Shown: piece by piece, positions 27,133-41,151 of the stretch
How the letters are laid out: every line of letters starts with the position of its first letter
Numbering within the stretch: position 1 is the first letter of the stretch
Source: a virus
Direction: 5' to 3' (one strand)
IMG/VR virus record: IMGVR_UViG_3300010299_000011
Span: 1 to 44,458 of that record
DNA: 44,458 nucleotides
The notes under the pieces: generated by a model
The model's database searches: none
Told to the model about the DNA's origin: nothing
The model's input: only the letters and a program-made list of their open reading frames with translations
Made by a program: the position numbers and the translations under genes

Positions 27133-27653
27133 CGGCCCTTCCCTTTGAGTGCGTGCTTTTCGATGACCTTCTCTCGCAGCTCACCTGCGCTAGCCTTTTT
27201 GTTCGCAGTTCGCAAACGGCGAACTTCCTTCTGGATGATCTTCTCGTTCAATACGGATCGCTTCGGTTCGGCAGGGCCGGGGTCATAATTGTAAATGCCC
27301 TGAACGGCCAAACGTCGCTTCTGGGCGACACGCTTAATGTCGTCTACCCCGGACACCCATGCGTCCGGGTCTTTCCAGCCACGCTTGTCTGCGAGTCCTC
27401 CGACGTAGTATTTCCCTGAGATGTCTACGCCCGCCTCACGCGCCTCTTTGGCGACGTACCTCGCCTGCCGAGGCGGCATTTCGTCCAGCTGCTGGTTGTT
27501 GTACCGTCCCTCCATAAACGACCTGTCGGAGCCAAGCGACCCTGGGGCGGTCTGGTATGCGCACATTTCCGCCCACTTCTCGCCGTGCGGGAGCGCCTTT
27601 TGGTACGTTTCAACAGCCTCTAGGCCGAGGCGTTTAATGTGGTCAGGGATCAC
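27129..27653 (-). CDS. Conserved-type phage protein after the portal
   Basis: 174 residues. The start is GTG (27651-27653), GTGA-coupled to the portal stop with AGGAG upstream. The centre, DRSFMEGRYNNQQLDEMPPRQARYVAKEAREAGVDISGKYYVGGLADKRGWKDPDAWVS, is a pattern I have seen in other phage proteins of unknown function. The C-terminal third is a charged helix (NEKIIQKEVRRLRTANKK), which may bind nucleic acid. Function not assigned. Confidence 0.68.
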   Translation of the reverse strand: MIPDHIKRLGLEAVETYQKALPHGEKWAEMCAYQTAPGSLGSDRSFMEGRYNNQQLDEMPPRQARYVAKEAREAGVDISGKYYVGGLADKRGWKDPDAWVSGVDDIKRVAQKRRLAVQGIYNYDPGPAEPKRSVLNEKIIQKEVRRLRTANKKASAGELREKVIEKHALKGKGR

Positions 27654-29614
27654 TGCTGCTCCTGTGGCGGTTCGCCCGGAGGAGGTCCGGGCGGAGGTGG
27701 TGGTGGTACGAGGTAGCGGGACACATCGAAGTTCATAGTGTTCCCCCAGTCCTCCAGCATGGCATTGAACAGCTCTGGCCTGCCTGCCTGCAGAAGCCCC
27801 TGGGCGACGGGCATAATGATTTGCATAGCGTTGTTCAGGTTTTCCACCTTGGTGGCGATATTCGGCTTGCGGGCCGAGCCGGCTTCAACGCGGTAGCTGT
27901 ACTCCCGGACGATGGTGTCCGGGGCCTCGTTCAGCACGTGCATCTGCCACGCCTGAGCCGCCATGGGGCCGAGCAGCGGGGCGACGTCTTGCGGCGAGAT
28001 AAGCCACCTCGCCATCAACGCTTCCTTGCGGGCGACCTCCGAAAGGGCGTCCTCAAGCTGGTTGGCATAGTCGTCAGGGCGGACGGAGATTTGCTCCGCC
28101 TTCACCTGTGCTTCTGCAGCACTTCTGAATTGATTTCTGGAAAGCCCGTACAACAATTCTGTTAACCCAACCCGGCGGTCAAACAGAGCCGTTACCTCAG
28201 CGATGATCTGATACATGTCCTGGGTGACGCCAGGCATTTGAAAGACGCTGATCACATCGTTGACGCTGCGGCCAATAGCTTCGCTGATTTCAACGATCCT
28301 GAGTCCGCCTTCCGCCTTATCCAGAATCTTCGATTTGATGTCGGGGTCGGCAGCCTTTGCGACTCCAACAAGCGTCTGCGACGACGTCGCAATACGGGTT
28401 GCCAAAAACGACATAGCCCAGTTGATGAATCGCAACTCGCCGATGCCTGGCCGGATGAGGGAGACGGGCCAGCTGTATCCGGGCTTTCCATGCCACGCCA
28501 TCAGCGTAAACGGCCAGCCGTTTGGTTCTGCCCAGAATGGTATCGGCCACTGTGCGGACATAAACAGCGACTGTGGGATGCCCGTCTCGTCTACTTCCTC
28601 CTGCAGCATCTCCGGCGGCGCGTTTAACGGGAAGTCAACGCCTTCGGCTACGACGATGTAGCAGTTCGGCCCAAGGGAGTCGAACTTCCCGCGTAGCTCC
28701 TTGTCGCCGTCTTTCAAACGGTCGCCGAATCCAGTCTTGGAGTAGACTTCCCAGTACGTTAGCAGGTCGTTTGTTTTTCCGTTCTTGCGCTTTGTCTCGT
28801 AGCCACGCTCCCCAGCGTCTGCGCGTGAGTGGTAAGTCTCGCCGTTGGCCTTCAGGTCTTCACGCTTCAGGCCGAACTTGTTGGCCACGTAGTCAATTGG
28901 GTGGACCCGCTTGCGTGCGCACCAAAGGATGTCTTCAAACTCGTCAGCATCTGGATCCCAGACCAGGTTGTCGATGGAGTCGAAAAAGCTGCCGGCAAAC
29001 TTTGTTTCCGTGCCTGGTGGCTGGTACAGCTCATGCCACCAAACAGAGGCCCCCTTTATGAACGCCTCTTCGACGACCTTACGGGAGTGCTGCTTTAGGT
29101 TCAGCTCGTTCGGGGTGTAGTTCAGGTAGTCCTCCAGCAGTTTGCTGACGAGCTTGCGCCTCTCCAGCATCAACTGCTGCTGCTGGAGCATCTGCTGGTA
29201 CATCTGCACTCCAGGGTCTGGCATCATCACCGGCTGGCCGTCAGGGCCGATAACCGGCTGCCCGTCAGGCCCCATCTGTGGTGTCGGGGGCTGTGGGAAG
29301 ATGCCCAGCAGCTGCGGCCCGATGATCGGGTACTGCTTCGGGGTTACAGTGCGCGTCGGATTGCGGTGGTGGATGACGGCCGTAAAAAGACGCACAGCCT
29401 CCCAGACGCGGTTGACCTGCATCCGGAACTCGGGCGGGTCAATGCCGCGTGAGAAGTTTTTGAAATACTTGCTGCCCCACATCGCATCTGGATCGGAGCA
29501 GAAGAAGGACATAGCCTCCTCTGCGTCCTCGCTGAAGGGCTTCTTGTGCTTCTCAGCAAGGCGGATTTTCTCCAGCCACTGCTTACAGATGGGACGCAGA
29601 GGGTTATCTTCCAT
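27650..29614 (-). CDS. Portal protein
   Basis: 654 residues, size and order (after the large terminase, before tail genes) of a podovirus P22-like portal. Visible segments: PPEFRMQVNRVWEAVRLFTAVIHHRNPT, KVVEEAFIKGASVWWHELYQPPG, SFFDSIDNLVWDPDADEFEDILWCARKR, GIGELRFINWAMSFLATRIATSSQTL, and YANQLEDALSEVARKEALM. The portal dodecamer forms the packaging vertex and head-tail junction. A tandem GPDGQPVIG unit occurs near residues 119-136. The C-terminus is Pro-rich. Confidence 0.88.
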   Translation of the reverse strand: MEDNPLRPICKQWLEKIRLAEKHKKPFSEDAEEAMSFFCSDPDAMWGSKYFKNFSRGIDPPEFRMQVNRVWEAVRLFTAVIHHRNPTRTVTPKQYPIIGPQLLGIFPQPPTPQMGPDGQPVIGPDGQPVMMPDPGVQMYQQMLQQQQLMLERRKLVSKLLEDYLNYTPNELNLKQHSRKVVEEAFIKGASVWWHELYQPPGTETKFAGSFFDSIDNLVWDPDADEFEDILWCARKRVHPIDYVANKFGLKREDLKANGETYHSRADAGERGYETKRKNGKTNDLLTYWEVYSKTGFGDRLKDGDKELRGKFDSLGPNCYIVVAEGVDFPLNAPPEMLQEEVDETGIPQSLFMSAQWPIPFWAEPNGWPFTLMAWHGKPGYSWPVSLIRPGIGELRFINWAMSFLATRIATSSQTLVGVAKAADPDIKSKILDKAEGGLRIVEISEAIGRSVNDVISVFQMPGVTQDMYQIIAEVTALFDRRVGLTELLYGLSRNQFRSAAEAQVKAEQISVRPDDYANQLEDALSEVARKEALMARWLISPQDVAPLLGPMAAQAWQMHVLNEAPDTIVREYSYRVEAGSARKPNIATKVENLNNAMQIIMPVAQGLLQAGRPELFNAMLEDWGNTMNFDVSRYLVPPPPPPGPPPGEPPQEQQ

Positions 29615-34510: not shown

Positions 34511-35620
34511 TTAGGCAAGGCTGGTGAGTTTGAAGAAGTTACGCGGACTCTTAAATTTCAGGTTGCCGAGATGGCTGACGACATACCTATAGGCTTGCGT
34601 CACCTCGTCGTAGAACGGCCCCTCCGACGTCAGGAGGTTGCCCTCCATGCAGAGGAGTTCGATGTTGCCGACCGCAAGGCCGTAGCCGGTGTTCGCCGGC
34701 ACACTGCCTTCGGCCGAAATTTCCACACCGTCCAGCTCAAATACGTCTGTGAAGCCATAGCTCCGCAGACCGTTGGTGCGACTGACGATCACACGCTCCT
34801 TGGCGTCCAAGGCATTCAGCATGTCGATGAACAGCCGGCGAGCCAGGAGCACCATGTCGACCTGGTCCTCAGCGGAATCGTTTCGGCGAGTCTGATGAAT
34901 CGCCTCACGCACCGCCTTGGTGCAGTTAGCTGCCCAAGTGGTGTCACCAAAGTAGGACGAGGTGTAGTTGACGATGACCGGAGAGAAGAAGTCGAACTCC
35001 GGATCGGCTTCACCATTCGGCCACACGCCGCTCACCTGAGAGCCACCGTACGCACCGAGCGTGGTCGAAAGACCAGCATAGGTGTCATTCGGATAGCCGA
35101 ACGGGTCAGCTGCGTTTGCCGTCCGCTGGGCACCAGTGCCAACAGTGATCGTACCGTTGGTCCCCATAAACGATTCAATGCCGTGGAACTTCAGCTCGTT
35201 GCCGGCAGCGTAACCGTCCTGGACCCACTGCTTGGCGAGGTGCTGCTGCATGGAGGTGATGAGGCGGCTGGACATCTTGCCGGCCACGTTCACCAGCGCC
35301 TGGGCGCTACGATTTTCCAGCATCTCCTTCTTGTAGATGGCATCCGTCGCCTGGTAGCCCCGGTACTCCAGCTCTGCTTTCTTCCACAGGTTCTGGCGTG
35401 CAAAGGACCGTGGCGACTCGCCATTGTTGCCCTGCGGGCTGTGGTTGCGGTACTGGATTTCCCAGTCGAAACCTCGGCCTGCCATGTTCATCCGAACCTG
35501 GCCGGCACCCTCCAGCGCTGCAAAGAGCTTGTACTTCCGGAGGGAAGCGATCTCTTCCTCACGCAGGTGATTAACGATTGTGGTGGCGATTGACCTCGCC
35601 CAATCAGTCGAACTAGCCAT
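34511..35620 (-). CDS. Major capsid protein (HK97 fold)
   Basis: 369 residues. Length, position after a scaffold gene and sequence layout fit an HK97-fold capsid protein: helical N-arm (MASSTDWARSIATTIVNHLR), beta E-loop region (FDWEIQYRNHSP), the LEYRGYQATDAIYKKEMLENRS region, long spine helix (NVAGKMSSRLITSMQQHLAKQW), A-domain strands (VDMVLLARRLFIDMLNALDAKERV). ATG 35620 overlaps the scaffold stop by 8 bases. Confidence 0.88.
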   Translation of the reverse strand: MASSTDWARSIATTIVNHLREEEIASLRKYKLFAALEGAGQVRMNMAGRGFDWEIQYRNHSPQGNNGESPRSFARQNLWKKAELEYRGYQATDAIYKKEMLENRSAQALVNVAGKMSSRLITSMQQHLAKQWVQDGYAAGNELKFHGIESFMGTNGTITVGTGAQRTANAADPFGYPNDTYAGLSTTLGAYGGSQVSGVWPNGEADPEFDFFSPVIVNYTSSYFGDTTWAANCTKAVREAIHQTRRNDSAEDQVDMVLLARRLFIDMLNALDAKERVIVSRTNGLRSYGFTDVFELDGVEISAEGSVPANTGYGLAVGNIELLCMEGNLLTSEGPFYDEVTQAYRYVVSHLGNLKFKSPRNFFKLTSLA

Positions 35621-39676: not shown

Positions 39677-40342
39677 TCACTCCTTACTGGCCAATGCCCG
39701 TGCATTGTGGATTGCGCGCCTTACCATCAGCTTTGCTGCTGACCTGAGGAACAGTAGGCCACGCTTGTCCGCTTCTTCCTTCAGCCAATCACAGATGGTT
39801 TCGATGTTCTCCTCACACCAGTCGCAGCCACGTGCGTCCATGGCCTTGGCGCGTTGATTGCAGGTGCAGTTGGGTGTGGCCTTTATGCCGATGAGCATCA
39901 GAAGTTTCTTTAACTCTGTGCCGGGGCCAGACGGTGGATCGATCAGAACCGTGCCGTTGTCTAAGCGTGTATACGACGACCCGCCGTAGCTGTCGTCTTC
40001 GCACTTGCTGCAGGTCACGTTCCACAGATTCGGAAAGCCACTCGGTGTTGCTGCGCATCTCTCGTCGTCCGGACAGGCGCCGTCACAGGCTTCTTCCGCT
40101 GTGGCCCCCGGAAGCAGTGAGCCAATCTCCGAAGGGCGTGCCACACATGTGCAGCCTTCAGGGCAGGGCGGGTCTTCATCGCCTCCACACGGGCCTGAAC
40201 AGCCGCAGGGGTTGGGGATGCAGGTAGTCCCCTTGCCCTGGAAGGCTCCCAAGGACTCCAGGCAATCTGCCTCCGTGAGGACGACACAACTGCCGTCCGG
40301 ATAACAGCAGGCTCCACAGCAGCAGGTACAGGTACAGGCCAT
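39677..40342 (-). CDS. Cysteine-rich planctomycete-type protein
   Basis: 221 residues, first gene of the late operon. Residues 1-60 are packed with cysteines (TCTCCCGACCYPDGSCVVL, ADCLESLGAFQGKGTTCIPNPC), a motif of repeat modules in planctomycete surface/secreted proteins. The C-terminal ~75 residues, GTELKKLLMLIGIKATPNCTC, then DARGCDWCEENIETICDWL, are a block I know from planctomycete genomes. No signal peptide is visible. A virion or host-interaction role is likely; disulfide or metal binding is expected. No ribosome-binding site; a hairpin lies 10 bases before ATG. Confidence 0.75.
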   Translation of the reverse strand: MACTCTCCCGACCYPDGSCVVLTEADCLESLGAFQGKGTTCIPNPCGCSGPCGGDEDPPCPEGCTCVARPSEIGSLLPGATAEEACDGACPDDERCAATPSGFPNLWNVTCSKCEDDSYGGSSYTRLDNGTVLIDPPSGPGTELKKLLMLIGIKATPNCTCNQRAKAMDARGCDWCEENIETICDWLKEEADKRGLLFLRSAAKLMVRRAIHNARALASKE

Positions 40343-40351
40343 AGGGGTGAA

Positions 40352-40710
40352 TGTCCCGGAAACAGGAAACCGGGCTCCGGGACACTGACTGGTGGAAGGC
40401 TCTGGTTGCCGGAACGGTCTTTAGGTGTCCCTCACCGACTGGCTCCTGCGGGGTGCGACAAGAAGGGACAGCCCGTGATGCCCCGCCGCTCAGAGAGCGG
40501 CAAGCTAACGGATTGTGGTGCCTGTCGGTTGACGACTGTACGGACAGGGTTCTGCTTCTGCTCGCCACACGCAGTGCCAGGGAGTTCTTTGGCCTCAGCT
40601 GCGAAATCAAAATCAGAGGCCCTTCGCTGAGCCGGCTCCACTCTGGCTGGTATTGCGACTCCCCTGCTTCGGCAGGGAGTCGCTGCGCACTCACCACTCA
40701 GACTGGTGAG
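40352..40710. other. Structured noncoding region upstream of the late operon
   Basis: Seven stem-forming pairs: 40352-40360/40376-40384 (9 bp, TGTCCCGGA/TCCGGGACA), 40485-40490/40496-40501, 40521-40526/40543-40548, 40591-40596/40616-40621, 40656-40667/40672-40682 (one bulge, loop UUCG closed by C-G on the plus strand) and 40690-40696/40704-40710. Frames crossing it lack convincing protein features. It could be a long 5' leader of the late operon or a plus-strand structured RNA; the UUCG loop favours the plus strand. Not covariation-tested. Confidence 0.5.
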
Positions 40711-40714
40711 GGGG

Positions 40715-40773
40715 TAGTAGGGGTATCTAATAAGAAGAGACTATAAGAATAACTATTAAATAACGTACCCGGT
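40715..40773. promoter_or_regulatory. AT-rich stretch next to the 21-bp repeats
   Basis: The most AT-rich block of the intergenic region (TAATAAG, CTATAAGAATAACTATTAAATAAC). It may be the late promoter zone or a duplex-unwinding element; no -35/-10 pair at a good spacing was found, though TATAAG and TAAATA occur. Confidence 0.35.
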
Positions 40774-40836
40774 TCGTCATATCTGACGACCTAATCGTCA
40801 AATATGATGACCTAATCGTCATATGTGATGACCTTT
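40774..40836. repeat. Three tandem 21-bp palindromic repeats (iteron/operator array)
   Basis: Units at 40774-40794, 40795-40815 and 40816-40836 share a core TCGTCA-N4-TGAYGA-CCTAA (last unit ends CCTTT). The first core is a perfect dyad (TCGTCATATCTGACGA); the others have one or two changes. A 21-bp period (two helical turns) puts all sites on one DNA face. Compatible with iterons of a replication origin or a cooperative repressor operator. Confidence 0.85.
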
Positions 40837-41151
40837 GGGGGTCCAAAGGGGTGAAAAAATCCAGGAGCGGGATTGACGAAATAGACGCTTCGGCTTGGGG
40901 GGCCACCCGGGGGCGGCTGTGCCTGGTTGTGTACGCTTGTGCATTGGTGTACGGGCGTTCCGCTTGTGACGTAACCCTAGTGCTGGCAAGGGGTTAGGGG
41001 TATTCGAATCCTTGCCGCAGTATAGGCCGTCCCTCCCGGGAGGGGTATTTTGCGGGGAAACAGCGATCTGCCGCCGCAGATTGTGCGACGCGGGCTCAGT
41101 GTGCATGCATCGCCTAGCCCCCTACTCCTGCCCCCCGACGCGCAAAAGAAA
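40837..41151. other. Gene-poor interval with inverted repeats
   Basis: No credible gene. Contains the inverted pair GGCAAGG (40985-40991)/CCTTGCC (41010-41016), palindrome CCCTCCCGGGAGGG (41031-41044), hairpin ATCTGC-CGCC-GCAGAT (41066-41081) and a duplicated GTGTACG. An open frame of 95 codons on the minus strand crosses the repeats but looks non-coding. Confidence 0.6.

Follow-up and report, generated by a model that had tools for sequence, protein, structure and literature searches.

A probable new family of structured noncoding RNAs in a group of uncultured phages

The IMG/VR virus record IMGVR_UViG_3300010299_000011 (44,458 bases, here called the window) contains an RNA element at 40344..40707 on the + strand. 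It extends from a 5' hairpin to X2, the right copy of a direct repeat, with limits set by comparison with the related contig L006 and with other family members. Judging from sequence comparison, the element probably represents a new and autonomous family of structured phage noncoding RNAs of ~330-360 nt, which would be made from the + strand and act as folded RNAs and not as mRNA leaders. The uncultured phages that carry it make up one clade, with a genome size of about 60 kb; when 50,697 records of cultured phages were searched, no relative of the head and portal proteins of the window came up. An initial annotation of 40352-40710 had listed several stems there, all of which are present in the sequence, and had proposed either a new phage noncoding RNA or, for the late operon, a regulated leader of unusual length. 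The first proposal is supported by covariation, by strand evidence for +, by a family of ~33 members and by the lack of an Rfam match. The second is not, because the RNA lies on the strand opposite to the late operon and has another location in nearly all relatives, most of whose late operons have no such RNA in front.

Folding energy alone was not convincing as decisive evidence for a structured RNA. The minimum free energy of 40340-40730 had a z of -1.67 on the + strand, with 7/100 shuffles as good, and of -2.47 on the - strand. As stems alone prove little, the decisive evidence is comparative. L006:1643-1985(-) aligns to window positions 40346-40695 with ~69% identity, and compensatory changes are seen between the two, for example CCUGUC/GACAGG in the window and CCAGCC/GGCUGG in L006. 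The alignment has single-base gaps through both overlapping open reading frames (131 aa on +, 173 aa on -), and the RNA is therefore not coding, in agreement with the earlier view that the span holds no plausible gene.

The family comparison used 80 related IMG/VR loci, several of them on contigs of ~60 kb. A DNA search of the relatives' whole records placed the RNA at other positions in two of them, and a pattern built on a conserved motif gave further members. Two covariance models were used, R1 (80 positions of the 5' core) and R2. R1 found the RNA in 20/45 related phage records at E<1e-6, and later scans added 11 contigs, some of them near-copies of one another (L154, L156, L158, L159, L164, L169, L171, L174, L175, L176 and L177). 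Two more genomes, G007 and G029, carry the RNA in its usual slot and were missed by the models. Outside this group, no match turned up in cultured phages, for which the window copy and two other members served as queries, or in plasmids, which were searched with one member. In bacterial genomes, scanning for an exact pattern produced five matches, all of them due to chance. Rfam 15, searched with the window and 14 member loci, gave no family at the gathering threshold; the matches that appeared at permissive limits (E<=10, E<=5) were all weak and unrelated, far below gathering scores. The models of ROOL, GOLLD, HEARO (Rfam RF02033) and group I/II introns did not match even at permissive thresholds; GOLLD and ROOL had been suggested for comparison in the initial annotation. 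ARAGORN detected no tRNA or tmRNA, and no description of this RNA was found in the open-access literature.

The 5' core (40395..40472, +) was defined with R1, R2 and pair counts. It consists of hairpin P1 (40398-40400/40408-40410), helix S2 (40427-40432/40464-40469), which is likely part of a pseudoknot, and hairpin P3 (40442-40446/40450-40454). In alignment A4 (20 sequences) 97.5% of the pair cells of the core were standard, and two-sided changes occurred in 11/14 pairs, a result reached in 0/500 shuffles. The pairing collapsed when partners were slid by 1-3 columns, falling to 58% with a slide of one column. A six-sequence set aligned with MAFFT gave the same picture. Homologues thus show compensatory changes of the kind that the initial annotation proposed to look for. 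The core also holds 10 G.U cells on the + strand, against 1 A.C cell.

Downstream of the core, helix P4 (40514-40520/40563-40569, +) encloses hairpin P5 (40521-40526/40543-40548, +). The loop of P5 shows ACGACU in the window and is near-invariant, of the GACUCC type, in the family. Next to P4 lies an H-type pseudoknot (40570..40621, +) with an A-rich linker, AAAUCAAAAUCA, formed by P7 (CGCAG/CUGCG, 40570-40574/40599-40603) and P8 (GGCCUC/GAGGCC, 40591-40596/40616-40621). These four helices were placed by hand in 18 members, of which 17 were tested against partners swapped between members. Own strands paired better than swapped ones, with 0/20000 permutations as good for each of P4, P5 and P7, and 230/20000 for P8. 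At the level of sequence, comparison shows P7, P4 and P5 to be preserved by compensatory change, and P8 more weakly so.

The 3' part contains two further hairpins. In P9 (40630..40648, +), the strand Y (AGCC, 40630-40633) pairs with GGCU at 40645-40648, which is part of X1, the left copy of the direct repeat, and GGCUCC lies in the loop. The Y:X1 pairing had an energy of -12.0 kcal/mol within members in comparison to -8.5 kcal/mol between members (0/5000). P10 (40655..40683, +) has a C(UUCG)G loop and an equivalent in other members; it is made of GCGACUCC/GGAGUCGC (8 bp), one bulged C and CUGC/GCAG (4 bp). The hairpin had been described as an 11-bp stem; its presence and its loop were right, while the count is 12 pairs with a bulge. 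The UUCG loops read correctly on + in both the window and L006, which favours the + strand for the RNA. At the other end of the RNA, the 5' hairpin UGUCCCGG/CCGGGACA (40352..40384, +) was seen in the sequence of the window and L006 only, with a shorter form in L006. The 5' side of P10 and the GACUCC loop of P5 are each complementary to one and the same GGAGUC strand (108/5000), which makes the two pairings mutually exclusive.

The direct repeat was identified by comparing X1 (CCACTCTGGCTGG, 40638..40650, +) with X2 (CCACTCAGACTGG, 40694..40706, +). In nearly all members X1, 9-14 nt located 3' of GGCUCC, recurs as X2 past P10 and a CACC-like motif; X2 is usually preceded by CACC and X1 by CUCC. 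The X sequence differs among members, yet X1 matches X2 inside each. In a permutation test on 12 dissimilar representatives the match was 9.7/11 within members versus 6.8 between them (0/20000). In a list made by hand, 24/29 of the X1/X2 differences were G in X1 and A in X2. Neither a third copy of X nor its complement was found on either strand of nine genomes, save for one near match in the window. Two candidate partners of X2 inside the RNA were rejected: Y:X2 as an alternative pairing was no better than chance (518/5000), and a third segment complementary to X2 had no consistent position. From these sequences we read X1 and X2 as matched to each other, whether by way of a strand that complements X2 or because the copies repeatedly convert one another.

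The RNA would work as a folded molecule, probably in oligomeric form or together with a protein, and would act neither through translation nor by control in cis of a downstream gene. The latter is inferred from the copies in the window and L006, which keep the elements without a gene directly downstream. As for a specific mechanism, X1 may be a short guide that pairs, in the RNA's own 3' flank, with the DNA strand lying opposite X2; positions with G in X1 and A in X2 would then form tolerated G.T wobbles. We consider this guide step a tentative and unlikely idea. We are similarly doubtful about a full self-addressed guide RNA, in which X1 of P9, together with a phage or host protein, would target DNA immediately downstream of the RNA gene; such an RNA would repress, nick or mark its own locus.

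Several points weigh against an autonomous structured RNA. Alignment A4 was fitted to the modelled structure, stems P4 to P8 were initially picked by hand, the test of P4 and P5 used intervals centred on the stems thus picked and hence was not fully independent of that choice, and P8 was weakly supported. No promoter match was found near the RNA, and most relatives have a gene start 10-90 nt 3' of it, as expected for a cis leader. No protein family clearly tracked the RNA across genomes with and without it; this null result is weakened because R2 missed G007 and G029, two genomes counted as lacking an RNA that they carry.

The position of the gene start bears on an alternative that we consider unlikely, namely that the RNA is a cis-acting leader or attenuator of a nuclease cassette. 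It would form the 5' untranslated region of an HNH, endonuclease VII or small p82-type gene and switch folds, with X2 beside the ribosome-binding site. In nearly all relatives the RNA has early genes on one side and an HNH/endonuclease VII cassette on the other, and it reads in the direction of its neighbours. The usual slot, ~5 kb beyond SSB, is bounded on one side by p77mem, ferredoxin-like or HExxH-like genes and on the other by an HNH gene that has a small conserved partner. The short distance from X2 to the next gene, the G-rich Shine-Dalgarno sequence sometimes found directly after X2 and the competition of the P5 loop and the P10 5' side for one GGAGUC strand would all suit such a leader. 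However, the downstream genes belong to different families, Y pairs with X1 and no better than chance with X2, and the helices and the X1/X2 match are retained in the window and L006, where no gene follows directly on the RNA strand. Only in these two was the RNA found beside the late operon. SSB is at ~1730 in the window, so the usual slot would fall off its left end, and the window genome may have a second copy of the RNA there.

The second location in the window and L006 would also fit a catalytic or mobile RNA that resembles an intron or forms the RNA end of a transposon (IS200/IS605, IS110), with X1/X2 serving in recognition of the flank by the element. Many members start at an upstream stop codon, adjoin nuclease genes and carry a copy of their own flank. 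We nevertheless find this reading improbable, as the location is mostly conserved, the Rfam models of group I/II introns and HEARO did not match, and X1 is identical and not complementary to the flank, unlike the exon-binding sites of introns. In addition, no transposase, TnpB or IS110-type recombinase was seen among the neighbours read, these families not having been searched genome-wide. In IS110 bridge RNAs, loops match DNA at the element's own flank, and a segment of our RNA does likewise; it differs in its fixed location in most relatives, and a recombinase of the IS110 type was not seen among the neighbours read. The RNA is similar in length to HEARO, for which 343 nt has been described (PMC12286853), and like HEARO and the omega RNA of IscB/IsrB it often has an HNH gene adjacent. 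It differs from these in the absence of a model match and in the small size of the neighbours in sampled relatives, a 132 aa protein with HNH only and a 140 aa endonuclease VII; IscB/IsrB with RuvC (plus HNH) domains was not adjacent in these relatives. ROOL and GOLLD are phage-borne, pseudoknotted RNAs of ~600-800 nt, often near tRNA islands, whose function and protein partner are not known (PMC12286853). Our RNA resembles them in being phage-encoded and pseudoknotted, but it is shorter, lies near nuclease genes and was found with no tRNAs.

We find it highly improbable that the late operon has a structured 5' leader read from the - strand: in the window that strand does fold slightly better than + relative to shuffles, and GGUGAGUG/CAUUCACC can close the fold with a G.U there, but the G.U cells favour + by 10 to 1, relatives have no RNA before the late operon, and in them the + strand of the RNA matches the gene direction.

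The late operon comprises most of the - strand genes of the window, with the portal protein at 27650-29614 and the major head protein at 34511-35620; baseplate-type proteins, Erf and an exonuclease are encoded further along. Its first gene (39677..40342, -) encodes a Cys-rich protein of 221 aa, and its start codon at 40342 adjoins the RNA element. The RNA had thus been correctly positioned upstream of the late operon, but not in strand, as it runs divergently in the window and L006. A 73-bp element (40830..40902, -), with the core GTCATATCCACCCCTGGATTTTTTCACCCC in relatives, is kept upstream of the late operon in most of them. The operon begins ~130 nt past this element in other relatives, where the RNA is missing, and at a distance of ~490 in the window. 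Contigs L047, L074 and L077 terminate at the 73-bp element, which may reflect either a cos-like genome end or a break in the assembly. Between the RNA and this element lie three 21-bp repeats (40774..40836, no strand assigned) with a palindromic core like TCGTCATATGTGATGA; by their sequence they are operator-like, resembling the operators of a repressor. Directly 5' of the first late start codon, a recurrent GG(A/G)CACTTGNCTAGTAGGAGG was observed in relatives such as L007, L009, L024 and L054, which looks like a promoter plus Shine-Dalgarno sequence; the window retains GGACATTCACC at this place.

In some relatives the usual slot holds other structured-looking sequences unlike this RNA, at ~3900-4700 of L200 (G015) and ~7600-8100 of L211 (G032), and neither matched Rfam. 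The slot of G015 includes a 9-bp stem, GCCGAAGAG/CUCUUCGGC, flanking CCUAAUGAUAAGG. In G018 (44400-45020) an HNH gene replaces the RNA, and the TTTCCAAACGGT that follows the stop codon is perhaps a remnant of the RNA 5' end. A serine recombinase with a Resolvase domain is encoded at L162:12499-13272(-), ~5.7 kb from the RNA, and based on this gene the phage may be temperate.

A family-wide RNA that is supported by covariation and has no catalogued relative would add one more class to the few large structured RNAs of phages. Its X1/X2 match, which is specific to each member and differs one way, from G to A, offers a testable handle on the mechanism. The self-addressed guide, if true, would represent an RNA-guided system with no relation to CRISPR, IscB/TnpB or bridge RNAs.
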